From Candidatus Eiseniibacteriota bacterium (lineage in GTDB: Bacteria > Joyebacterota > Joyebacteria > Joyebacterales > Joyebacteraceae), in NCBI GenBank assembly GCA_030610515.1, contig JAUWRQ010000006.1, forward strand, positions 1-10,988: a stretch of 10,988 nt of DNA. Direction: 5' to 3'. A model generated the notes under the pieces. That model made no database searches and was not told the DNA's origin. It saw only the letters and a list, made by a program, of their open reading frames with translations. Of the stretch, positions 1 through 9,143 are shown one piece after another. Position 1 is the first letter of the stretch; each line of letters starts with the position of its first letter. The position numbers were made by a program, and so were the translations under genes.

Positions 1-390
1 GCGAAGGAGATGGAGTTCGACGACCACGAGCAGCCTACGATCTTCGAAGACTTCCTCGAGGCGCTCGGATGCGACGTCGTCGACTTCCCCATGAAGACGG
101 AATGCTGCGGCGGATTCCAGATCGTGCGCGACGAGGACACAGCGATCGCCTGCTCGCAGAACGTCGCGGCTTCAGCCATCAGGGCGGGTGCCGACATCAT
201 CGTGACGACGTGTCCGCTCTGTCGCTACAACCTCGACGCCAAGCAGAAGGAGATATCCGAGCGAGTTCAGGACTGGCGTGAAATCCCGGTCGTCTACTTC
301 ACGCAGCTTCTGGGTCTGGCGCTCGGGATCGACAAGAGCCACATAGATTTCAAAGACAACTACGTAGATCCGCGGCCCGTGCTTTCGTGA
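1..390 (+). CDS. hdrB: Heterodisulfide reductase subunit B, C-terminal part (5' end outside window)
   Basis: The reading frame is open from base 1 and stops at TGA 388-390, so the true start lies upstream; the ATG at 10 is internal. The visible 129 residues are the last cysteine-rich (CCG) domain of HdrB: a cysteine in LGCDVV, then ECCGGF, then a TTCPLCRYNLD motif, giving the C...CCG...CxxC spacing of this family. In characterised HdrB, two such domains bind noncubane [4Fe-4S] clusters that reduce a disulfide or another two-electron acceptor. The next gene is hdrA, 46 bases downstream on the same strand, so this subunit is probably the acceptor end of the complex encoded here. CCG domains also occur in SdhE and in the C-terminal half of TfrB. 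Since a fumarate-reductase-like pair follows in this operon, an SdhE/TfrB-like role is possible. An hdrC gene, if present, would lie upstream. Confidence 0.88.
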   Translation, partial: AKEMEFDDHEQPTIFEDFLEALGCDVVDFPMKTECCGGFQIVRDEDTAIACSQNVAASAIRAGADIIVTTCPLCRYNLDAKQKEISERVQDWREIPVVYFTQLLGLALGIDKSHIDFKDNYVDPRPVLS

Positions 391-400
391 GAAAGAGTGC

Positions 401-413
401 CGCACCAGGTGCG
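401..413. repeat. Short perfect palindrome between hdrB and hdrA
   Basis: CGCACCAGGTGCG is a 13-base palindrome with a single central base, in the 46-base gap between the hdrB stop (390) and the hdrA start (437). The single-base centre cannot form a normal hairpin loop, so if it does anything it would be as a DNA site for a dimeric protein. It may be chance in GC-rich DNA. Confidence 0.25.
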
Positions 414-436
414 ACGAAGAGCATGCTCGAGGGGGG

Positions 437-2401
437 ATGATGGAGAAACGTATCGGGGTTTTCGTCTGCCACTGCGGAACGAACATCGCGGGAGTGGTGG
501 ACGTGAAACGCGTGGCGGGGGAGTTGGCCGGGTACCCCGGCGTGGCCTACTCCACTGACTACACCTACATGTGTTCCGACCCGGGCCAGAACCTGGTCAA
601 GGACGCCATCAAGAAGCACAAGCTTGACTCGGTCATCGTCGCCGCGTGCTCGCCCACGCTCCACGAGGTGACGTTCCGGAACGCTGGACGGGCGGCGGGC
701 GTGAACCCGTACGAAGTCGAGATCGCGAACATCCTCGAGCAGTGCAGCTGGGTCCACCAGGGCGACAAGGAAGCGGCTACCGTCAAGGCCGTCCGCATCA
801 TCAAGACGATGGTCCAGAAGGCGATTCTCGACGAGCCGCTGGAGCCGATAGCGGTTCCGATGACGCACCGCGCGCTTGTTGTGGGAGGGGGCATTGCGGG
901 GATACAGGCGGCGCTCGATATCGCGAACGCGGGCCACGAGGTCGTCCTTGTCGAGAAGGACCCGTCGATCGGCGGCCACATGGCCCAGCTCTCCGAGACG
1001 TTCCCGACGCTCGACTGCTCGCAGTGCATCATGACCCCGAAGATGGTCGAGGTCGCCCAGCATCCCAACATCACGCTGCACACCTATTCCGAGGTCGATG
1101 ACGTGTCGGGCTACGTCGGGAGCTTCAGGGTCAAGATTCGCAAGAAGGCCTCCTACGTCGACCGTGACAAGTGCACCGGCTGCGGCATCTGCGTGGAGAA
1201 GTGCCCGGCCAAGACGCCGTCCGAGTTCGACGAGGGCCTCGCAATGAGGAAGGCCATCTACACGCCGTTCCCGCAGGCCGTCCCGAACAAGCCGGTTCTC
1301 GATGCTGCGCACTGCACGTACTTCCTGAAGGACGGGAAGTGCGGCATCTGCGCGAAGGTCTGCCCGCTCGACTGCCTCGACTACGAGCAGGAGGACGAGA
1401 TCATTGAGGAAGAGGTCGGCGCCATCGTCGTCGCGACCGGATACGACCTCTATCCCATCGCCAACATCGGCGAGTACGGCGGCGGCAAGTACCCCGACGT
1501 CATCACGAGCCTTCAGTTTGAGCGCATGCTGTCGGCCTCAGGTCCGACCGGGGGAGAGGTGCGGAGACCATCAGACGGCGAGGAGCCCAAGGAGATCGTG
1601 TTCCTGACGTGCGTCGGCTCGCGCGACCCCGAGAACCACCTGCCGTATTGCTCGAAGGTCTGCTGCATGTATCTCACGAAGCACGCGATGCTCTACAAGC
1701 ACAAGGTGCACGACGGACAGGCGTACGTCTTCTATATGGACGTGAGGACCGGCGGCAAGGGCTACGAGGAGTTCTACACCCGCGCTGCGGAAGAGGACGA
1801 CGTCCTGTACATCCGCGGCAAAGTCTCGAAGGTCTTCGAGGAAGACGGGAAGGTCATGGTGTGGGGCGTCGACACGCTCGTGGGCGAGAAGATCGAGATC
1901 GCGGCCGACATGGTCGTGCTCGGGTTGGCGACCGTCCCGAATCCCGCGGCCAAGGCGCTGGCCAACAAGCTCAAGATCCACACGGACGAGTGGGGATTCC
2001 TCTCGGAGGCGCATCCGAAGCTCCGGCCTGTCGAGAGCCTGGCGCCCGGCTTCTATCTAGCCGGCGCGGCTCAGGGACCGAAGGACATCCCGGAGTCGGT
2101 CTCCCAGGCGTCGGGAGCTGCGAGCAAGGTCTGCTCCCTCTTCGCGGAGAAGGAATATCACAGGGAGCCCGTCGTCGCGTGGATAGATGAGGACTCCTGC
2201 GCGGGTTGCAGAATTTGCATCTCGGTCTGTCCATACGACGCGGCCGAGTTCGATGAGGAGGAAGGGGTCGCCCGAATACAGGAGGCGATCTGCGAAGGGT
2301 GCGGAGCCTGCATCGCTGCCTGTCCATCGGGCTCGGCTTCCCAGAAAAACCTTACTGACGACCAGATCTATAGGATGGTCTCGGCGGCGCTGGAGGACTG
2401 A
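437..2401 (+). CDS. hdrA: Heterodisulfide reductase subunit A (HdrA), FAD and multi-[4Fe-4S] electron-bifurcating subunit
   Basis: This 654-residue protein is the usual length for HdrA and has the full domain order. The N-terminal cluster domain has C11, C13, C46 and C71. A thioredoxin-reductase-like FAD domain has GGGIAG at 150-155 and the family motif LDCSQCIMTPKMVE. A ferredoxin insert has C246, C249, C252, C256 and C302, C305, C309, C313. The family motif CVGSR...YCSKVCC has cysteines at 392, 405, 409 and 410. A C-terminal 2x[4Fe-4S] ferredoxin has C588/591/594/598 and C619/622/625/629. In characterised Hdr-Mvh complexes the HdrA FAD splits electron pairs between ferredoxin and HdrB, fed by MvhD; the adjacent hdrB and mvhD fit that. 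The protein should be cytosolic: no signal peptide or membrane segment is seen. The GA-rich ribosome site GAGGGGGG (429-436) abuts ATG 437, so ATG 440, one codon later, may be the better start. Confidence 0.95.
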   Translation: MMEKRIGVFVCHCGTNIAGVVDVKRVAGELAGYPGVAYSTDYTYMCSDPGQNLVKDAIKKHKLDSVIVAACSPTLHEVTFRNAGRAAGVNPYEVEIANILEQCSWVHQGDKEAATVKAVRIIKTMVQKAILDEPLEPIAVPMTHRALVVGGGIAGIQAALDIANAGHEVVLVEKDPSIGGHMAQLSETFPTLDCSQCIMTPKMVEVAQHPNITLHTYSEVDDVSGYVGSFRVKIRKKASYVDRDKCTGCGICVEKCPAKTPSEFDEGLAMRKAIYTPFPQAVPNKPVLDAAHCTYFLKDGKCGICAKVCPLDCLDYEQEDEIIEEEVGAIVVATGYDLYPIANIGEYGGGKYPDVITSLQFERMLSASGPTGGEVRRPSDGEEPKEIVFLTCVGSRDPENHLPYCSKVCCMYLTKHAMLYKHKVHDGQAYVFYMDVRTGGKGYEEFYTRAAEEDDVLYIRGKVSKVFEEDGKVMVWGVDTLVGEKIEIAADMVVLGLATVPNPAAKALANKLKIHTDEWGFLSEAHPKLRPVESLAPGFYLAGAAQGPKDIPESVSQASGAASKVCSLFAEKEYHREPVVAWIDEDSCAGCRICISVCPYDAAEFDEEEGVARIQEAICEGCGACIAACPSGSASQKNLTDDQIYRMVSAALED

Positions 2402-2402
2402 G

Positions 2403-3299
2403 ATGTTCGAACCGAGGATCGTCTGCTTCTTCTGCAAGTGGTGTACGTACGCCGGCGCGGATCTTGCCGGCACGTCGCGCAAGCAGTATCCGCCCAACGG
2501 TGTGGTCGTGCGAGTGAACTGCAGCGGCAGGATCGACCCGCAGCACATCCTTTGGGCGTTTCGCGAGGGGGCCGACGGAGTGCTGATCGGAGGCTGCCAC
2601 CCGGGCGACTGCCACTACCAGGACGGCAACTACAAGACGATGCGCCGCGTTGCGTTCTTGAAGCGCATGCTCGAGGACATGGGGGTCGACCCCGAGCGGC
2701 TGCACCTGGAGTGGATCTCCGCGGCTGAGGGCGAGAAGCTCGTCCACGTGATGAACGACTTCGTCGACGCAGTCAAAGAGATGGGTCCGATGGAGGTCGA
2801 TCTGGCAGGAGGTGGGAAGCTCACTGCGACGCCTCCTGCGAGTCCGAAGAAGCCCGCGAAGAAGACGAAGAAGGCGGCAAAGAAAGCCAAGCCGAAGCCC
2901 AAGAAAAGGGCGGCCAAGAAGACCACGAAGACGACGAAGGCCAAGCCTAAGAAGAAGACCGCGAAGAAGGCGGTGAAGAAGACCGCCAAGGCCAAGCCTA
3001 AGAAGACAGTCGCCAAGAAGAAGGTCACGAAGAAGACGAAGACGATCAAGGCCAAGCCTAAGACGAAGGTGGTCAAGAAGACGGCTGCCAAGAAGGCGAA
3101 GCCGAAGCCCAAGAAGAAAGCGACGAAGAAGAAGATCACGAAGAAGAAGGTCGCGGCCAGGCCGAAGAGGAAGACCGCTAAGAAGGCGGTGAAGAAGAAG
3201 GTCGCCGCGAAGTCCAGGAAGAAGACGGCGACGAAGACCGCCAGGAAGAAGGTCGCGAGGAAGGTCACACGCAAGCCGGCGAGGAAGAGATCGAGGTAG
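2403..3299 (+). CDS. mvhD: MvhD-type [2Fe-2S] electron-transfer protein fused to a lysine-rich, histone-H1-like C-terminal tail
   Basis: Residues 1 to about 140 are a typical MvhD/HdrD-delta domain: C8, CKWC at 11-14 followed by TYAGADLAGTS, C40 in NCSGRIDP, and C65 and C70 in GGCHPGDCHY. In Mvh-Hdr complexes this [2Fe-2S] protein passes electrons from the donor module to HdrA. The start is ATG 2403, one base after the hdrA stop, with GGAGG at 2392-2396; in-frame starts further upstream lie inside hdrA. After a short linker, residues 147-298 form a low-complexity tail of lysine, alanine, proline and threonine. By my count about half of these residues are Lys or Arg, and none is acidic. Ordinary MvhD proteins end near residue 140, so the tail roughly doubles the protein. 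Such tails in histone H1 and bacterial H1-like proteins bind nucleic acid or other polyanions. What it does on a redox subunit is unknown. There is no stop or frameshift between domain and tail. Confidence 0.92.
   Translation: MFEPRIVCFFCKWCTYAGADLAGTSRKQYPPNGVVVRVNCSGRIDPQHILWAFREGADGVLIGGCHPGDCHYQDGNYKTMRRVAFLKRMLEDMGVDPERLHLEWISAAEGEKLVHVMNDFVDAVKEMGPMEVDLAGGGKLTATPPASPKKPAKKTKKAAKKAKPKPKKRAAKKTTKTTKAKPKKKTAKKAVKKTAKAKPKKTVAKKKVTKKTKTIKAKPKTKVVKKTAAKKAKPKPKKKATKKKITKKKVAARPKRKTAKKAVKKKVAAKSRKKTATKTARKKVARKVTRKPARKRSR
2841..3296 (+). repeat. Lysine-codon (AAG) rich internal repeat region encoding the MvhD tail
   Basis: This part of the MvhD gene is built from short imperfect repeats. The 15-mer AAGGCCAAGCCTAAG occurs identically at 2937-2951, 2988-3002 and 3048-3062. 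A second unit, GCCGAAGCCCAAGAA, occurs near 2891 and 3101. Nearly all lysines use AAG. The pattern suggests growth by slippage or unequal crossing-over. It also explains the long leucine-rich open frames on the opposite strand here, which are not genes. Confidence 0.85.
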
Positions 3300-3373
3300 C
3301 AGCAGGCGACCTGAGTTCTCGACGCGAACATGATTCCAAGAGGCGAGCGGCAACCAAGGGAGAAGAACACACG

Positions 3374-4057
3374 ATGTCACAGGACATGGCGACCATCTAC
3401 GTGATGGGGAAGCCGTACGAGGTGCCCAAGGACCTCACCATCATGAAGGCGATGGAGTACGCCGGCTATCGCTTCGTCAGGGGGTGCGGTTGCAGGGGAG
3501 CGTTCTGCGGCGCCTGCGGCACGGTCTACAGAACGAGCGACGACTACCGCCTCAAGGTCGGACTCGCCTGCCAGGAAGTTGTGCAGGACGGGATGTACCT
3601 CTCAGAGATCCCGTTCTTTCCCGGCAACAAGGCGATCTACGACATCGAGGAGCTGACTCCGACATCCGAATCGGTCCTCAAGCTCTATCCCGAGGTCTTC
3701 CGCTGCCTGGCGTGCAACACGTGCACCAAGGCGTGCCCTCAGGACATCGAGGTGATGGAGTACATCCAGGCGGCGCTCCGCGGCGACATCGCGAAGGCGG
3801 CAGACCTGTCCTTCGATTGCCTGCTGTGCGGGCTGTGCGCTGCGCGCTGCCCGGCCGAGATAGTCCAGTACAACGTGGCCCTTCTCTGCCGGAGGCTGTG
3901 CGCCCGCCACATAGCGCCGAAGTCCGCGCACCTCGAGAAACGCCTCGAGGAAGTCGAGAAGGGCAAGTTCGACAAGGACATCGCCAAGCTCATGGACATG
4001 GACGAGCCGGAGCTTGCCGACCTCTACAACAACCGCGACATGGAACCGAGAGACTAG
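3374..4057 (+). CDS. Iron-sulfur protein with SdhB-type [2Fe-2S] domain and HdrC-like 2x[4Fe-4S] domain (TfrB-N-like)
   Basis: This 227-residue protein pairs an N-terminal plant-type ferredoxin fold (C40, C45, C48, C66; motif GCRGAFCGACG) with two four-cysteine motifs, C111xxC114xxC117xxxC121P and C149xxC152xxC155xxxC159P. Ordinary SdhB/FrdB carries [2Fe-2S], [4Fe-4S] and [3Fe-4S] centres. Here the third site has a complete CxxCxxCxxxCP set, so a second [4Fe-4S] is expected, as in HdrC and the N-terminal part of TfrB. It sits 13 bases upstream of the flavoprotein gene and very likely passes electrons between that subunit and the Hdr/MvhD chain. No quinone-anchor gene is nearby, so I infer a soluble partner. 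The start is ATG 3374, with GGGAG about 11 bases upstream; ATG 3386 is an alternative. It could also be annotated as a generic fumarate reductase iron-sulfur subunit. Confidence 0.88.
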   Translation: MSQDMATIYVMGKPYEVPKDLTIMKAMEYAGYRFVRGCGCRGAFCGACGTVYRTSDDYRLKVGLACQEVVQDGMYLSEIPFFPGNKAIYDIEELTPTSESVLKLYPEVFRCLACNTCTKACPQDIEVMEYIQAALRGDIAKAADLSFDCLLCGLCAARCPAEIVQYNVALLCRRLCARHIAPKSAHLEKRLEEVEKGKFDKDIAKLMDMDEPELADLYNNRDMEPRD

Positions 4058-4073
4058 GAGGAGGGACGAGTTG
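4056..4073 (+). promoter_or_regulatory. Ribosome binding site and TTG start of the flavoprotein gene
   Basis: AGGAGGAGGG at 4056-4065 begins inside the TAG stop (4055-4057) of the iron-sulfur gene and is followed five bases later by TTG at 4071. This decides the start of the flavoprotein and suggests translational coupling of the two subunits. Confidence 0.75.
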
Positions 4074-5699
4074 TATACCCCGGAGATGCTCGAGTTGATC
4101 AAGCGTGTGGAGGCCACGCGCAAGGAGCGACTGCATCAGGAGTTCCCCCTTCTGTCGGCCGACGCGAAGCAGGAGCTCCTGCACGGGTTCCATCCCGATT
4201 TCAAAGACGAGGTGTTTCGAACTCTGACGGTCGGGCCGTCCAAGGGGGAACGCACTCCGAAGGAATACGCGGACGTATTCGAGGCCTACAGCACCATAGA
4301 CCCCGGTGATTTTGACCTCTCGAAGGTCGACCACGACGTCGATGTTCTGGTGATAGGCGGAGGAGGGGCCGGAGCTTCAGCCGCGCTCGTCGCGCACGAG
4401 CAGGGTGCGAACGTCCTCTTGGTGACGAAACTCCGCTTGGGCGACTCGAACACGGTCATGGCCCAGGGCGGGATCCAGGGCGCCGACAAGGAGAACGATT
4501 CTCCGGCCATTCACTACCTCGACGTGCTGGGCGGCGGACACTACAAGAACATCCCGGAGCTCGCGAAGGCGCTCGTCATGGACGCCCCGGAGATTCTCAC
4601 GTGGCTCGAGAAACTCGGTGTGATGTTCGACAAGCAGGCCGACGGGACCATGATCACGATTCACGGCGGCGGGACCTCGCGCAAGAGAATGCACGCTGCC
4701 CGTGACTTCACCGGCGGCGAGATCATGAAGACCTTGAAGGACGAGGTTCTGAACCGTGACATTCCGCTCATCGAGTTCGCCTCGGCCTACGAGCTTCTGA
4801 CCGACGGCGACACCGTGACCGGTGCCGTCCTCTACAACATGGAGACCGAGGAGTACCTGGTCGTCAACGCCAAGACGATCATCCTCGCCACGGGCGGCGG
4901 CGGCAGATTACACGTCACGGGCTTTCCGACGTCTAACCACTACGGGGCAACCGCCGACGGGCTCGTGCTCGGCTACCGCGCAGGAGCACCACTCATCTAT
5001 ATGGACACGATTCAGTACCATCCGACGGGAGCGGCGTATCCGGAGCAGATTCTGGGGCTCCTGGCCACGGAGAAGGTGCGGAGCATCGGCGGGCAGATCA
5101 CGAACATTGAGGGTGACCGCTTCATCTACGAGCTCGAGACTCGAGACGTGGAGGCGGCTGCCATCATCCGGGAGTGCTCGGGCAGGAACAAGGGGGTCGG
5201 CACGCCGTCCGGACAACCGGCCGTCTGGCTGGACACCCCGATCATCGAAGAACTGCACGGTGAGGGAACGATCAAGGCTCGCGTTCCCGCGATGTTCCGT
5301 CAGTACGAGCGGTTCGGCATCGACATGTCGAAGCATCCCATTCTCATCTACCCGACGCAGCATTACCAGAACGGCGGTCTCAAGATCGACGACTCGTGCG
5401 AGACCGACGTGAAGAACCTTTACGCCGCAGGCGAAGTGTCTGGCGGGATCCACGGAACGAACAGGCTGATGGGCAACTCTCTCCTGGATGTCGTCGTCTT
5501 CGGCAGGAGAGCCGGAGCGGCGGCCGCTGAGCGAGCGACGTCCATCAAGAAGAGTTCGAAGATCACGCTTTCGCACCTCGAGGCCTTCCACGCGGAACTC
5601 GAAGCCGCGGGCGTCCCTAGGGACAGGACGGCGCCGATGCTCCTTCCGGAGTACCGTCGTCCGGAGTTGGCCGGAAGGAAGCTCGCGCTCTCTTCCTAG
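4071..5699 (+). CDS. Fumarate reductase/succinate dehydrogenase-type FAD flavoprotein (FrdA/SdhA/TfrA family)
   Basis: I choose the TTG at 4071 as start: AGGAGGAGGG (4056-4065) overlaps the previous stop and is ideally spaced, whereas upstream in-frame codons overlap the preceding gene; ATG 4086 is a fallback. The 542-residue product has about 90 extra N-terminal residues, then a dinucleotide motif GGGGAG at 96-101. The catalytic set of fumarate reductases is present: H317 in YHPTG, E334-x-x-R337, R358 in ETRDVE, H431 in PTQHYQNGG, and R465 in HGTNRLMGNSLLD. The histidine that binds FAD covalently in SdhA/FrdA is replaced by N127 (GDSNTVMAQGG), so FAD is probably noncovalent, as in L-aspartate oxidase. 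NadB itself is unlikely given the iron-sulfur partner and Hdr genes alongside. It probably interconverts fumarate and succinate or a similar substrate pair in the cytosol; the substrate is inferred, not shown. Confidence 0.88.
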   Translation: MYTPEMLELIKRVEATRKERLHQEFPLLSADAKQELLHGFHPDFKDEVFRTLTVGPSKGERTPKEYADVFEAYSTIDPGDFDLSKVDHDVDVLVIGGGGAGASAALVAHEQGANVLLVTKLRLGDSNTVMAQGGIQGADKENDSPAIHYLDVLGGGHYKNIPELAKALVMDAPEILTWLEKLGVMFDKQADGTMITIHGGGTSRKRMHAARDFTGGEIMKTLKDEVLNRDIPLIEFASAYELLTDGDTVTGAVLYNMETEEYLVVNAKTIILATGGGGRLHVTGFPTSNHYGATADGLVLGYRAGAPLIYMDTIQYHPTGAAYPEQILGLLATEKVRSIGGQITNIEGDRFIYELETRDVEAAAIIRECSGRNKGVGTPSGQPAVWLDTPIIEELHGEGTIKARVPAMFRQYERFGIDMSKHPILIYPTQHYQNGGLKIDDSCETDVKNLYAAGEVSGGIHGTNRLMGNSLLDVVVFGRRAGAAAAERATSIKKSSKITLSHLEAFHAELEAAGVPRDRTAPMLLPEYRRPELAGRKLALSS

Positions 5700-5712
5700 A
5701 CCGGAGGACTGC

Positions 5713-6195
5713 TTGAGGTCTCTCATTCTGGGGATCGGGGACCACGTGGGTGAGATCGAGCACGTCGGGCTCGAGGTCGCCCGCGGGCTCCACGCAATGT
5801 TGCGGGACCCCGACGTAGACATCATAGTGTCACCTGGCGCAGGTATTGACCTCTTCGAACTGGCGGCAGGATACGACAAGGTCGTCGTGGTCGATTCGGT
5901 TCGGAGTGGAGAGGGAGACGTCGGCGAGCTCCGAAAGCTGGGCTTAGGCGACTTGGAGCTGACCGTGAGGGCAAGCTCCAGTGACGGCCATGAGTACCAC
6001 GCAGTTCTCGATCGCGGCGACGAGCGCGGGTCGAAAGCCCCCCTCGAGATCTCCATCTACGCCATCGAAATGGGTCGGGGTGCCCGGTTCACGGCCGAGT
6101 CCTCGGAAGTTCTTCGCAGCATCGTGCCCAGGCTCGTGGAGCAGATCGCGCGCGAGGAGTTCGGAGCCGGTTCCATGAGCGGCGAGTGGTACTAG
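5713..6195 (+). CDS. Divergent hydrogenase maturation protease (HycI/HybD/HyaD family) homologue
   Basis: The TTG start at 5713 is set by GGAGG (5703-5707), 13 bases after the flavoprotein stop. It gives a 160-residue protein, typical for the family. The N-terminus LILGIGDHVGEIEHVGLEVARGL matches the family GxGNxLxxDDGVG motif but is degenerate: Asn becomes D10, and DDG becomes I15-E16-H17. E16, D61 (VVVVDSVRSG) and H93 (DGHEYH) fall at or near the three nickel-sensing ligands of HybD-type proteases. These enzymes trim the C-terminus of the NiFe hydrogenase large subunit after metal insertion. No hydrogenase large subunit is in the window, so either an mvhA/mvhG pair lies upstream or this copy serves another protein. 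It is probably the last gene of the redox operon, since a sigma factor follows closely. Confidence 0.72.
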   Translation: MRSLILGIGDHVGEIEHVGLEVARGLHAMLRDPDVDIIVSPGAGIDLFELAAGYDKVVVVDSVRSGEGDVGELRKLGLGDLELTVRASSSDGHEYHAVLDRGDERGSKAPLEISIYAIEMGRGARFTAESSEVLRSIVPRLVEQIAREEFGAGSMSGEWY

Positions 6196-6206
6196 TGCGA
6201 GGCCCC

Positions 6207-6812
6207 ATGGGCGAGCAGAGCACCCACACGGATTCCGAGTTGGTCGAGAAGGCGAAGACCGGTGACGGCGACGCCTTCGGCGAACTCGTTGTCAGACACG
6301 AGAGCAAGATCTACGGGCTCTGCCTCAAGATGCTCGGCAACCCGGAGGACGCGGAAGACTGCCTCCAAGAAGTTTTCATGAAGGCCTTCGAGGCGCTGCC
6401 GGGCTTCCGACAGGAGGCTCGGTTCTCGACGTGGCTCTACAGAATCGCATACAACGCTTGCCTGATGCGCATCCGAAAGAAGAAGCTCGAGACCGTTCCG
6501 CTCGATCGCCCGGTTCAGATTGGGGAGGACCAGATCGAGCGCGACGTCGCTGACTGGACCACGGACCCGCGCGCTGAACTCATGAACGAGGAGCTCAGTG
6601 ACGTTCTGACGAGACACATCAACGAGCTTCAGCCGGACAACAGGATCGTCTTCGTTCTTCGCGACATCCACGGGCTGTCGACGGACGACACGGCCAGCGT
6701 CCTCGGGCTGTCAGTGCCGGCGGTCAAGTCGCGACTGCACAGGGCGAGGCTTTTCCTGAGAGAGAGACTGACGGGTTACTTCGCACGAGGATCATCCGAA
6801 ATCCACGCGTGA
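6207..6812 (+). CDS. ECF-family RNA polymerase sigma factor (sigma-70 family, RpoE-like)
   Basis: This 201-residue protein has the two ECF regions. Sigma region 2 spans about residues 20-85, with DAFGELVVRHESKIYGLC, the NPEDAEDCLQEVFMKAF core-binding stretch and FSTWLYRIAYNACL. Sigma region 4 spans about 130-190, with LQPDNRIVFVLRDIHGLS, then the helix-turn-helix ASVLGLSVPAVKSRLHRAR that reads the -35 element. It redirects RNA polymerase to a small regulon. The start is uncertain: ATG 6207 has a GAGG at 6199-6202; GTG 6195 overlaps the preceding stop (TAGTG); GTG 6186 adds seven residues. It is 11 bases from the protease homologue and 44 bases from the lipoprotein gene, so it may be co-transcribed with either side. 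A zinc-finger protein at 8895 is a candidate anti-sigma partner. Confidence 0.93.
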   Translation: MGEQSTHTDSELVEKAKTGDGDAFGELVVRHESKIYGLCLKMLGNPEDAEDCLQEVFMKAFEALPGFRQEARFSTWLYRIAYNACLMRIRKKKLETVPLDRPVQIGEDQIERDVADWTTDPRAELMNEELSDVLTRHINELQPDNRIVFVLRDIHGLSTDDTASVLGLSVPAVKSRLHRARLFLRERLTGYFARGSSEIHA

Positions 6813-6856
6813 CCGGACCGGGAGACACTCGGCCGGAAGACAAGGGGGAAGGAAGA

Positions 6857-8797
6857 ATGTTCGGTAACTCACGCAGGTTTGTCGCGGCCGTCGCTCTGGT
6901 CGCGCTCCTGGCTGGGATGGCCTTCGTCATCGCGTCCTGCGGTTCGAGCGACACCAAGCTCATTCCCAGGTCCGTGCTCGTCGGCAATCCCGAGAAGATG
7001 AGAGCGAGGCTCTCGCCCGACGGCGTGCGCCTTGCCTATGTCGCCCCGTATGAGGACGTGTTGAACGTGTGGGTGACGACGATCGGCGAAGACGACGACC
7101 GGGTTCTGACCCACGACACCAACCGCGGCATCTTCCGGTACTTCTGGGCGCACGACAACAAGCGCATCATGTATCTGCAGGACAAGGACGGCGACGAGAA
7201 CTGGAGGCTCTACGACGTAGATCTCGAGACCGGCGAAGAGCGCGATCTCACGCCCTACGACAACGTGCAGGTCAGGATCGTCGACGTGAGCAAGCACCAC
7301 CCGGACACGATCGTCATCACGATGAATATGCAGGACGAGCGACTCCACGATGTCTACCGGTTGGACCTCGTGTCCGGCGAGCACACGATGGTGGCTCGCA
7401 ACCCCGGCAACATCGTAGGCTGGGTTACGGACTTCGACCTCAAGGTGCGCGGCGCCCTTGCCGCGACGCCCACGGGCGGCTACGACATGCTCGTCCGGGA
7501 CACCGAGGACGCCAGCTGGGAGACGATTCTCACCTGGGGGTCCGAGGACAACATGACGAGCTACCCCATCACCTTCACCAGGGACGGCGGTTCTCTTCTG
7601 ATGGTGGATTCGCGCAACTCCAACGCCGGCCGCCTCGTCAGCTTGGATATCGAGACAAAAGAACTCGAGGTGATCGCCGAGGACGAGACGTACGACGTGA
7701 GCGATATCGTGCTGCACCCCGACACCTTCGAGGTCGAGGCGGTGAGCTTCACCAGGGAGCGCTCCGAGTGGACCGTTCTCTCCGACGACATCGCAGCGGA
7801 CTTCGAGGCGATCAGCGCTCTCGACGAGGGCGATTTCAGCCTCACGAGCACGGACAACGACTACGACACGTGGGTGGTGGCGTTTGTGAAGGACGACGGG
7901 CCGGTGTCGTACTGGAGCTACGACCGCGACACCAAGGAGGGGACGTTCCTGTTCGTCCATCGTTCTGCCCTCATGGACTACACGCTTGCGGCGATGGAGC
8001 CCATCTCGTTCACGTCGCGCGACGGACTCACGATCCACGGGTACATCACGTTTCCGGTCGGGAAGCCGAGGCGCAATCTGCCCATGGTCCTGAACGTCCA
8101 CGGCGGCCCGTGGTATCGCGACGCGTGGGGCTACAACCCGGAGGCGCAGTTGCTCGCGAACCGCGGCTACATCTGCCTCCAGGTGAACTTCCGCGGCTCC
8201 ACCGGCTACGGCAAGGAGTTCGTGAACGCGGGCGACAAGGAGTGGGGCGGCAAGATGCACAACGACCTGCTCGATGCCGTGAACTGGGCCATCGATCAGG
8301 GTTACGCCGATCCCGAGAAGATTGCTATCTACGGCCATTCATACGGAGGCTACGCGGCGCTCGTCGGCGCCACGTTCACCCCGGACGTCTTCGCCTGCGC
8401 TATCAGCGGCATGGGGCCGAGCAACCTCGTGACGTTCATCAACTCCGTCCCGCCGTACTGGGCCACCATGCTCGAGAGCATGTACAAACGGATCGGTGAT
8501 CCGAGAACGGAGGAGGAGTTCCTGAAGGAGCGCTCTCCGCTCTTCCGGGTCGACCAGATTCAGATCCCGATGATAGTCGTGCAGGGCGCCAATGACGTGC
8601 GCGTCAAGCAGGCTGAATCGGAGCAGATCGTCGCGGCCATGGAGGAGAAGGGCCTCGACGTCGAGTACATCCTCTTCGAGGATGAGGGACACGGATTCGC
8701 GAAGCCTGAGAACAGGGTTGAGTTCTACGGCAAGGCCGAGGAATTCCTTGCGAAGCATCTTGGCGGGCGATACGAGCCGGCGACGATCGAGAGCTAG
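6857..8797 (+). CDS. Lipoprotein S9-family serine peptidase (prolyl oligopeptidase/acylaminoacyl peptidase type)
   Basis: The start ATG 6857 follows the purine-rich GGGGGAAGGAAG and gives a 646-residue protein. An in-frame GTG at 6809 would place 16 residues before a good signal peptide and is less likely. Residues 1-28 are a lipoprotein signal: basic NSRR, a hydrophobic stretch, then the lipobox IASC with C28 as the lipidated residue, so the enzyme should be anchored on a membrane outside the cytosol. A beta-propeller-like region precedes the alpha/beta hydrolase domain. The hydrolase has HGGP at 415-418, the nucleophile S495 in GHSYGGY, D580 in GANDVRV and H612 in EGHGF, a complete S9 triad. 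Such enzymes hydrolyse short peptides. Its place between a sigma factor and a putative anti-sigma protein may mean it belongs to the same envelope-stress or nutrient response, but this is inference. Confidence 0.93.
6884..6940 (+). other. Lipoprotein signal sequence and lipobox of the S9 peptidase
   Basis: This stretch encodes residues 10-28, a run of Ala, Val, Leu and Met ending in VIASC. Ile-Ala-Ser-Cys fits the bacterial lipobox, with cleavage before C28. Confidence 0.75.
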
Positions 8798-8822
8798 TTC
8801 GCATCTAACCGTGTAGAGACGA

Positions 8823-8856
8823 GTGCCCGGTCGGCCAGGACCGGTCGGCCGGGCAC
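8823..8856 (+). terminator. Strong GC-rich hairpin downstream of the S9 peptidase gene
   Basis: Bases 8823-8836 pair with 8843-8856 in a 14-bp stem with two G-U pairs and a six-base loop (AGGACC), beginning 25 bases after the peptidase stop. The stem is as stable as an intrinsic terminator, but no T-run follows. It may be a Rho-assisted terminator, a 3'-end RNA-stabilising structure, or an attenuator before the small zinc-finger gene. Confidence 0.5.
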
Positions 8857-8894
8857 CGACCCATCGCTCCTTGAGGGCGATGGCGGAGGCCGCG

Positions 8895-9143
8895 ATGGAC
8901 GACATCCGAGAGTGCAAGGCGTTCCTGGAGTACCTGTCCGCGCACTTCGATGGTGAGCTTGACGAGGATCTGGTGGTTCAGTTCGAGCAACACCTCCGGT
9001 TCTGTTCGAACGCCAGGTGCATCGTTCGGACTTTCGAACGCACGATAGCTCTCCACCGTCAGAGGCGGCCCGACCGGGTACCAGCCGACATGCACGAGCG
9101 TCTCCTCAAGGCGCTCGAGGAGTGTCGCAGGAGCGGCGGGTAG
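8895..9143 (+). CDS. Small putative zinc-finger (zf-HC2-like) anti-sigma factor
   Basis: The ATG at 8895 is preceded by GGAGG (8885-8889) at ideal spacing and gives an 82-residue soluble protein; ATG 8880 is a weaker option. The sequence resembles the anti-sigma zinc-binding domain: C7, then a helix, DGELDEDLVVQFEQHL, then H33-x3-C37-x4-C42. The usual motif is H-x3-C-x2-C, so this copy has two extra residues between the last cysteines. Such domains wrap the ECF sigma factor and release it on redox or envelope signals. The gene lies 2.1 kb downstream of the sigma gene, with the lipoprotein peptidase between them, and it lacks the transmembrane helix common in membrane-bound anti-sigma proteins. 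The family assignment is moderate and the pairing with this sigma factor is inferred. Confidence 0.65.
   Translation: MDDIRECKAFLEYLSAHFDGELDEDLVVQFEQHLRFCSNARCIVRTFERTIALHRQRRPDRVPADMHERLLKALEECRRSGG

Follow-up and report, generated by a model that had tools for sequence, protein, structure and literature searches.

A predicted Hdr-coupled soluble fumarate reductase, possibly hydrogen-fed, in Candidatus Eiseniibacteriota

Gene layout and conservation of the operon

The window analysed here, a stretch of 10,988 nucleotides from a metagenome-assembled genome (MAG; GCA_030610515.1, 57% complete, 342 contigs) of an Effluviviaceae-type sediment bacterium in Candidatus Eiseniibacteriota ('Eisenbacteria'), is the entire contig C28 (JAUWRQ010000006.1) and carries on its forward strand an operon that probably encodes a soluble fumarate reductase coupled to heterodisulfide reductase (Hdr) subunits. 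The contig starts within hdrB, of which only the C-terminal part with the second CCG cysteine set is present (1–390; PF02754, E = 2.3e-10). It is followed by a full-length hdrA for the predicted bifurcating-flavin subunit (437–2401; 732 bits to Methanothermococcus HdrA 5odc_A over residues 1–651 of 654), mvhD (also termed flpD) with a Lys-rich C-terminal tail (2403–3299; PF02662, E = 8.2e-53), a frdB-like gene encoding one [2Fe-2S] and two [4Fe-4S] motifs (3374–4057; PF13510 and PF13187), a frdA-like flavoprotein gene with the FAD_binding_2 domain and a TTG start (4071–5699; PF00890, E = 7.8e-76), and a hycI-like gene, likewise with a TTG start, for a hydrogenase maturation protease homologue that lacks an expected His (5713–6195; TIGR00072). 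From hdrB through the hycI-like gene, the coordinates leave gaps of 46, 1, 74, 13 and 13 bases. Coordinates and Pfam matches thus confirmed the order of hdrB, hdrA, mvhD, iron-sulfur protein and FrdA-type flavoprotein that a preliminary description had read from the sequence alone. Its spacing of 1, 74, 13 and 13 bases also held, except that the last 13 lead to the hycI-like gene, which it had left unnamed.

That description had called for a survey of conserved co-occurrence. A scan for FrdA with one genome per species returned 172 encoding places, and the best 80 of these 172 constitute the 80 loci considered below. Genes at the loci come from homology-guided calls; MvhD of L030, L031 and L034 was masked by shadow open reading frames and recovered on the corresponding stretches. 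The complete order hdrC-hdrB-hdrA-mvhD-frdB-frdA-hycI was found in L024, L025, L026 and L029 and in L198–L201, some of the latter being contigs that the FrdA scan returned as well. The operon is therefore real and conserved. Of the 80 loci, many of them on contigs that end early, 68 have FrdB in the vicinity and 44 an Hdr gene; where 6 kb or more of sequence precedes FrdA, 37 of 48 loci have a gene for HdrA, HdrB or HdrC nearby.

FrdBA adjoined either fumarase or Hdr, the latter by itself or together with MvhD, with Flx-type genes or with Kor. Since these sets differ among the 80 loci, FrdBA is a cassette whose partners change. In a FrdA tree of 79 rows, with one mis-framed row ignored, the contexts were clustered, yet had repeatedly switched (23 changes for seven labels versus a shuffled mean of 50.9). 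Flx-type NAD-binding genes occurred in 12/80 loci, mostly in Bacillota and others, and gene calls at the family operon loci revealed no flxABC. A WOR-3-type arrangement, fumA-fumB-frdB-frdA with no hdr gene nearby, was seen in L039, L041, L043, L045, L046, L048 and L052, and further in L056, L058, L063 and L065. A second, distant Hdr-Frd set, hdrC-hdrB-frdB-frdA (FrdA 54% identical to that of the window), was present at L188 (G000:C92), L192 (G005:C61) and L194 (G011:C225); at L192 it is preceded by a gene for an 828-residue HdrA, in the same frame as a weak FlpD match.

Cofactor and catalytic residues of the subunits

The preliminary description had assigned HdrA a possible bifurcating flavin, and the conserved residues bear this out as a prediction. 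E362 and K415, which align with E356 and K409 of Methanothermococcus HdrA (5odc_A), were each retained in 31/31 homologues. In part of one report, such a Lys/Glu pair is proposed to mark bifurcating HdrA, and some HdrAs are described that lack one residue or the other (PMC12054007). Most cluster cysteines of HdrA were likewise kept in 31/31 (C194 and C197 in 28/31, C625 in 30/31). All 40 full-length HdrB homologues have the ten cysteines for two noncubane clusters; the window holds the C-terminal set only, and cysteines 35, 36, 71 and 74 of its fragment were present in 41/41 rows. HdrB had been proposed to supply the CCG part that TfrB carries at its C-terminus; in the homologues it is a complete protein in its own right, with the cysteines of both clusters.

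In FrdB, twelve cluster cysteines were conserved in 65/65 sequences, and profile searches found no TfrB CCG half. It matches the N-terminal half of TfrB, its suggested counterpart, only weakly, the TfrB model giving 25.7 bits over ~30 residues (cut-off 385). The suggested resemblance of FrdA to TfrA fared better: TfrA is its top NCBIfam match, scoring 348 bits where the cut-off is 718, which is resemblance and not membership. With both curated cut-offs missed, we rejected strict membership in TfrAB, the thiol:fumarate reductase of methanogens, from which this system also differs in its separate CCG protein and in having HdrA and MvhD.

FrdA contains the catalytic residues of fumarate reductase flavoproteins: when aligned to E. 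coli FrdA, six catalytic positions (His, Thr/Glu, Arg, His, Arg; which we take to be E. coli H232, T244, E245, R287, H355 and R390) were kept in 76–77 of 78 rows. Close homologues match residues 1–540; more distant flavoproteins mostly match only ~83–500, so that this family has an N-terminal extension of its own. A profile search did not find the Succ_DH_flav_C domain PF02910 in FrdA, and, of 13 family genomes searched for the SdhC/D anchor family PF01127, 11 gave no match, while G004 and G010 carry it ~80 kb away or on a different contig. A quinone-linked complex II (succinate:quinone or quinol:fumarate reductase) was rejected on both counts, and the absence of a membrane anchor agrees with the soluble, Hdr-linked fumarate-reductase-type module envisaged at the outset.

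Hydrogenase genes and the HycI homologue

The lack of hydrogenase genes in the window means little, because the window is the whole of C28 and its MAG encodes an MvhA homologue, followed by HycI, on another contig, C251. A small mvhG-mvhA-hycI gene group recurred on 10/10 stretches from relatives (L178–L187), none of which carries an mvhD. It adjoins divergent response-regulator genes on seven of these ten stretches, and a FAD/NAD-binding protein of ~755 residues, whole or in part, is encoded beside it on six. Of the family genomes, 18 encode this FrdA (at least 72% identity); 13 of these have MvhA, two of them as split matches. A search for FlpD covered 23 genomes. The single FlpD match of G007 (97% complete) is located in the frd operon, as is the one canonical match in each of G003 and G009, which also have a weak ~73-bit match in a frame of more than 800 residues. 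The strongest evidence that points to H2 as donor is a genome that pairs a Mvh-type hydrogenase lacking its own MvhD with a single MvhD, the one predicted from the frd operon. Contig C279 of the window's own genome (G000; locus L105) encodes, as read from translations, a formate-dehydrogenase-like protein beside a group-4-like hydrogenase and antiporter-like genes.

At L086, from a distant bacterium, mvhG, mvhA, hdrC, hdrB, hdrA, mvhD, frdB and frdA are consecutive. They are followed in order by a ferredoxin-like gene, korA, korB, korC, sucC and sucD, and then, after two other genes, by fumA, fumB and hycI, the whole run (2892–20854) lying on one strand. MvhA, MvhG, KorA, KorB, SucC and HycI were confirmed by models and the remaining genes assigned by clustering. 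The run looks like an H2-fed segment of the reverse tricarboxylic acid (TCA) cycle. An archaeal contig (L070) carries mvhA-hdrC-hdrB-frdB-frdA. The preliminary description had placed the fumarate-reductase-type module in place of a visible hydrogenase; because mvhGA-hycI lies elsewhere in the same genomes and MvhGA within the L086 operon, the module is better understood as an addition to a hydrogenase.

The product of the hycI-like gene matches TIGR00072 with 54 bits (cut-off 47.45) and falls just below the cut-off of PF01750 (20.5 versus 23 bits). We compared 12 operon copies, from the window and from loci within L024–L062, with eight mvhA-adjacent copies and the L086 copy at an acidic, an Asp and a His position, presumably the metal-binding residues, with roles as in HybD. 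Among the operon copies, the His was found in 1/12 (L025) and the acidic residue as Glu in 8/12 (Gln or Arg in 4/12), and the Asp in 12/12; the mvhA-adjacent and L086 copies have the His in 9/9 and the acidic residue in 8/8 of those long enough. Only L025 combines all three residues among the operon copies, and this protein could still be active, judging from its residues. We rejected the notion that the operon homologue is simply the maturation protease of this hydrogenase: the His is mostly lost, and the copies with all readable residues adjoin mvhA. As the operon copies have shared motifs of their own, the protein is probably in use; it serves perhaps in assembly or docking, which is a guess.

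A proposed H2-fed complex and its alternatives

The gene order and its conservation, the retention of catalytic and cofactor-binding residues, the mvhGA loci that lack mvhD in these genomes and the uninterrupted L086 operon are observations; from them we infer a complex, its electron route, its direction and its activity as follows. HdrABC, MvhD and soluble FrdAB would assemble into one cytoplasmic complex. The donor in most of the family would be H2, with MvhG and MvhA from the separate mvhGA-hycI locus docking through MvhD. From the NiFe site, MvhG and MvhD would relay electrons to the flavin of HdrA, which would split the pair: one electron would reach ferredoxin through the ferredoxin domains of HdrA, and the other would travel through HdrC/HdrB and the three FrdB clusters to the FrdA flavin for fumarate reduction, the net reaction being 2 H2 + fumarate + Fd(ox) → succinate + Fd(red), where Fd is ferredoxin. 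We put the probability that HdrABC-MvhD-FrdAB is one such complex, fed with H2 via MvhGA in most of the family and bifurcating to fumarate and ferredoxin, at roughly 55%.

The potential of H2 is about −414 mV. That of fumarate is given as +33 mV in part of a published account (PMC5861303). Together these yield about −86 kJ per mol fumarate, so that ferredoxin reduction would be affordable.

Several observations weigh against this proposal. MvhA is within reach of FrdA in only 2/80 loci, L086 and L070. Among the 18 family genomes with FrdA, G010 has terminal fragments of MvhA only, and nothing beyond weak MvhA matches was found in G011, G014, G015 and G016; G011, G014 and G016 are 98, 90 and 95% complete, all in genus g5. 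G005 and G019, conversely, have MvhA yet not this FrdA. Either the donor varies, or gaps in the MAGs are at work. Genomes other than G003, G007 and G009 carry two to eight FlpD matches, and a lone mvhD elsewhere in G002 and G011 could serve MvhGA. (At L195 and L196, a lone mvhD without hdr neighbours adjoins housekeeping-looking genes.) Of the 12 operon HycI copies, 11, the window's included, are without one or two of the expected residues. No Hdr gene is nearby in 11 of the 48 long-flank loci, seven of which carry fumarase genes instead, and in WOR-3-type loci FrdBA adjoins fumarase, not Hdr.

The WOR-3-type loci correspond to half of a refuting case named beforehand, an FrdA pair apart from hdr and joined to sdhC/D: frdBA is indeed separate there, although beside fumarase, and sdhCD was not seen. 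HdrA was found elsewhere in 8/8 WOR-3-type genomes probed (56–62% identity); of seven such regions read, five have hdrC-hdrB-hdrA, one has hdrB-hdrA at the contig start and one hdrC-hdrA. This is compatible with coupling in trans without proving it.

In one rival, the same Hdr-Frd complex bifurcates, but the donor bound to MvhD is NAD(P)H, formate or some other dehydrogenase with its genes at a distance. The four MvhA-less genomes and the one with fragments would fit it, as would the Flx-type NAD-binding partners that Bacillota loci have instead and the formate-dehydrogenase-like gene and group-4-like hydrogenase on C279. However, the family operon is without flxABC, mvhGA lacks its own mvhD on all ten stretches, and MvhA is joined to the set in L086 and L070. 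We consider this reading unlikely for the family, if less so than those that follow.

Improbable, too, is the reverse direction, in which oxidation of succinate and of reduced ferredoxin would yield H2 by confurcation during fermentation or syntrophy. Under standard conditions, fumarate reduction is favoured by ~86 kJ/mol, although at very low H2 the reaction could near equilibrium, as estimated from assumed potentials. In E. coli FrdA, loss of the flavin-linking His harms succinate oxidation most, and this His is replaced by Asn in 77/78 rows. Confurcation would suit seep and sediment fermenters, which part of the phylum paper describes as H2-metabolising (PMC11323493).

We attach similarly little weight to co-expression of two separate enzymes, HdrB reducing some disulfide and FrdAB drawing on ferredoxin or a thiol in the manner of thiol:fumarate reductase. 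HdrB has all ten cluster cysteines and therefore could still act on a disulfide, and FrdBA stands apart from Hdr in WOR-3-type loci; against this, FrdBA adjoins Hdr in 37/48 long-flank loci, spanning unrelated phyla and different sets of partners, and FrdB is without the CCG half of TfrB. That FrdA is L-aspartate oxidase or acts on another substrate is very improbable. NadB models do match it well (285 bits), and NadB and fumarate reductase flavoproteins have most active-site residues in common, but NadB-looking partial PF02910 matches (66–72 bits) occur in 11/13 family genomes and the neighbours of FrdA homologues include fumAB, kor and sucCD.

For Pseudoclostridium thermosuccinogenes, a Flx-Hdr-fumarate reductase is reportedly described in a 2019 preprint by Koendjbiharie and van Kranenburg. 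In part of a text on its 'succinate operon', fumarate reduction by this Flx-Hdr-fumarate reductase is proposed to be coupled to ferredoxin reduction (PMC7282089). As far as these parts go, both systems combine hdr genes with a soluble fumarate reductase; in P. thermosuccinogenes the donor is NADH via Flx, whereas the family operon has no flxABC, MvhD only, a HycI homologue, and a hydrogenase elsewhere in most genomes. Passages on tubeworm symbionts and Chromatiaceae report flxABCD-hdrABC-korABCD-tfrAB clusters and suggest direct electron transfer (PMC6315080, PMC11636981). Hdr genes there likewise lie among fumarate reductase and Kor genes; those clusters are NADH-linked, and the hydrogenases discussed in these passages are of groups 1e and 3b. 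HdrABC-MvhAGD of methanogens resembles the family system in its full-length HdrA, the two cluster sets of HdrB, and MvhD, and most but not all family genomes have MvhAG as well, encoded elsewhere; unlike the methanogen complex, the family system has FrdAB added and mvhGA at another locus, and a coenzyme M/coenzyme B acceptor is not expected.

Part of the phylum paper mentions group 3c hydrogenases (PMC11323493); a term search of its main text did not find Hdr, Mvh, fumarate or succinate. Among the matches listed from the open-licence literature, we found no description of a Mvh-linked (H2-fed) fumarate reductase. The core of the coupling put forward in the preliminary description, to ferredoxin without a quinone, is thus already in print, in the parts of the literature covered, as the NADH-linked Flx-Hdr form; the donor is here read as H2, and the H2-linked form extends that mechanism.

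If our proposal is true, succinate formation would conserve energy in these anaerobes without membrane or quinone, and H2 would charge ferredoxin directly, for 2-oxoacid synthases or ion pumps. Fumarase (PF05681) was found in 9/9 and methylmalonyl-CoA mutase in 6/9 family genomes searched, and a KorA homologue of 63–67% identity in 5/9 (only 47–50% homologues in G003, G006 and G007; none in G000). PF02621 of the futalosine menaquinone route was absent from 9/9. As that search addressed the futalosine route only and part of the phylum paper reports demethylmenaquinone genes (PMC11323493), quinones may still be present. The L086 gene set (hydrogenase, Hdr, Frd, Kor, SucCD, FumAB) provides a specific example in which reverse-TCA chemistry driven by H2 could be tested. 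The fullest version of the proposal, a quinone-free, H2-driven bifurcating MvhAG-MvhD-HdrABC-FrdAB assembled from two operons in trans, with a mostly degenerate HycI as the assembly or docking subunit joining hydrogenase to Hdr-Frd core, and with FrdAB as a cassette common, in bacteria and archaea alike, to Hdr complexes fed by H2 or by NADH, is unlikely in all its parts together, and slightly more so in view of L025, whose HycI has all three metal-binding residues.

The MvhD tail (2808–3296) is a Lys/Ala-rich stretch of 163 residues (49% K+R), like histone-H1-type repeats. It is highly variable among relatives, with 76 (L198), 61 (L197), 38 (L031), 28 (L029) and ~6–19 residues (L024, L026 and L027). 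On the 3′ side of the hycI-like gene, the forward strand encodes an extracytoplasmic function (ECF) sigma factor, an S9 peptidase, a zinc-finger protein and a pyridine-nucleotide-disulfide oxidoreductase. The first three (6186–9143) also trail the operon in many family loci, and their function is probably separate from it. By FrdA, the nearest named relative is L032, a 'Candidatus Effluviviaceae Genus IV' contig (85% over the matched part), which is probably the same contig as in G001, a genome of the same genus (FrdA 84%).

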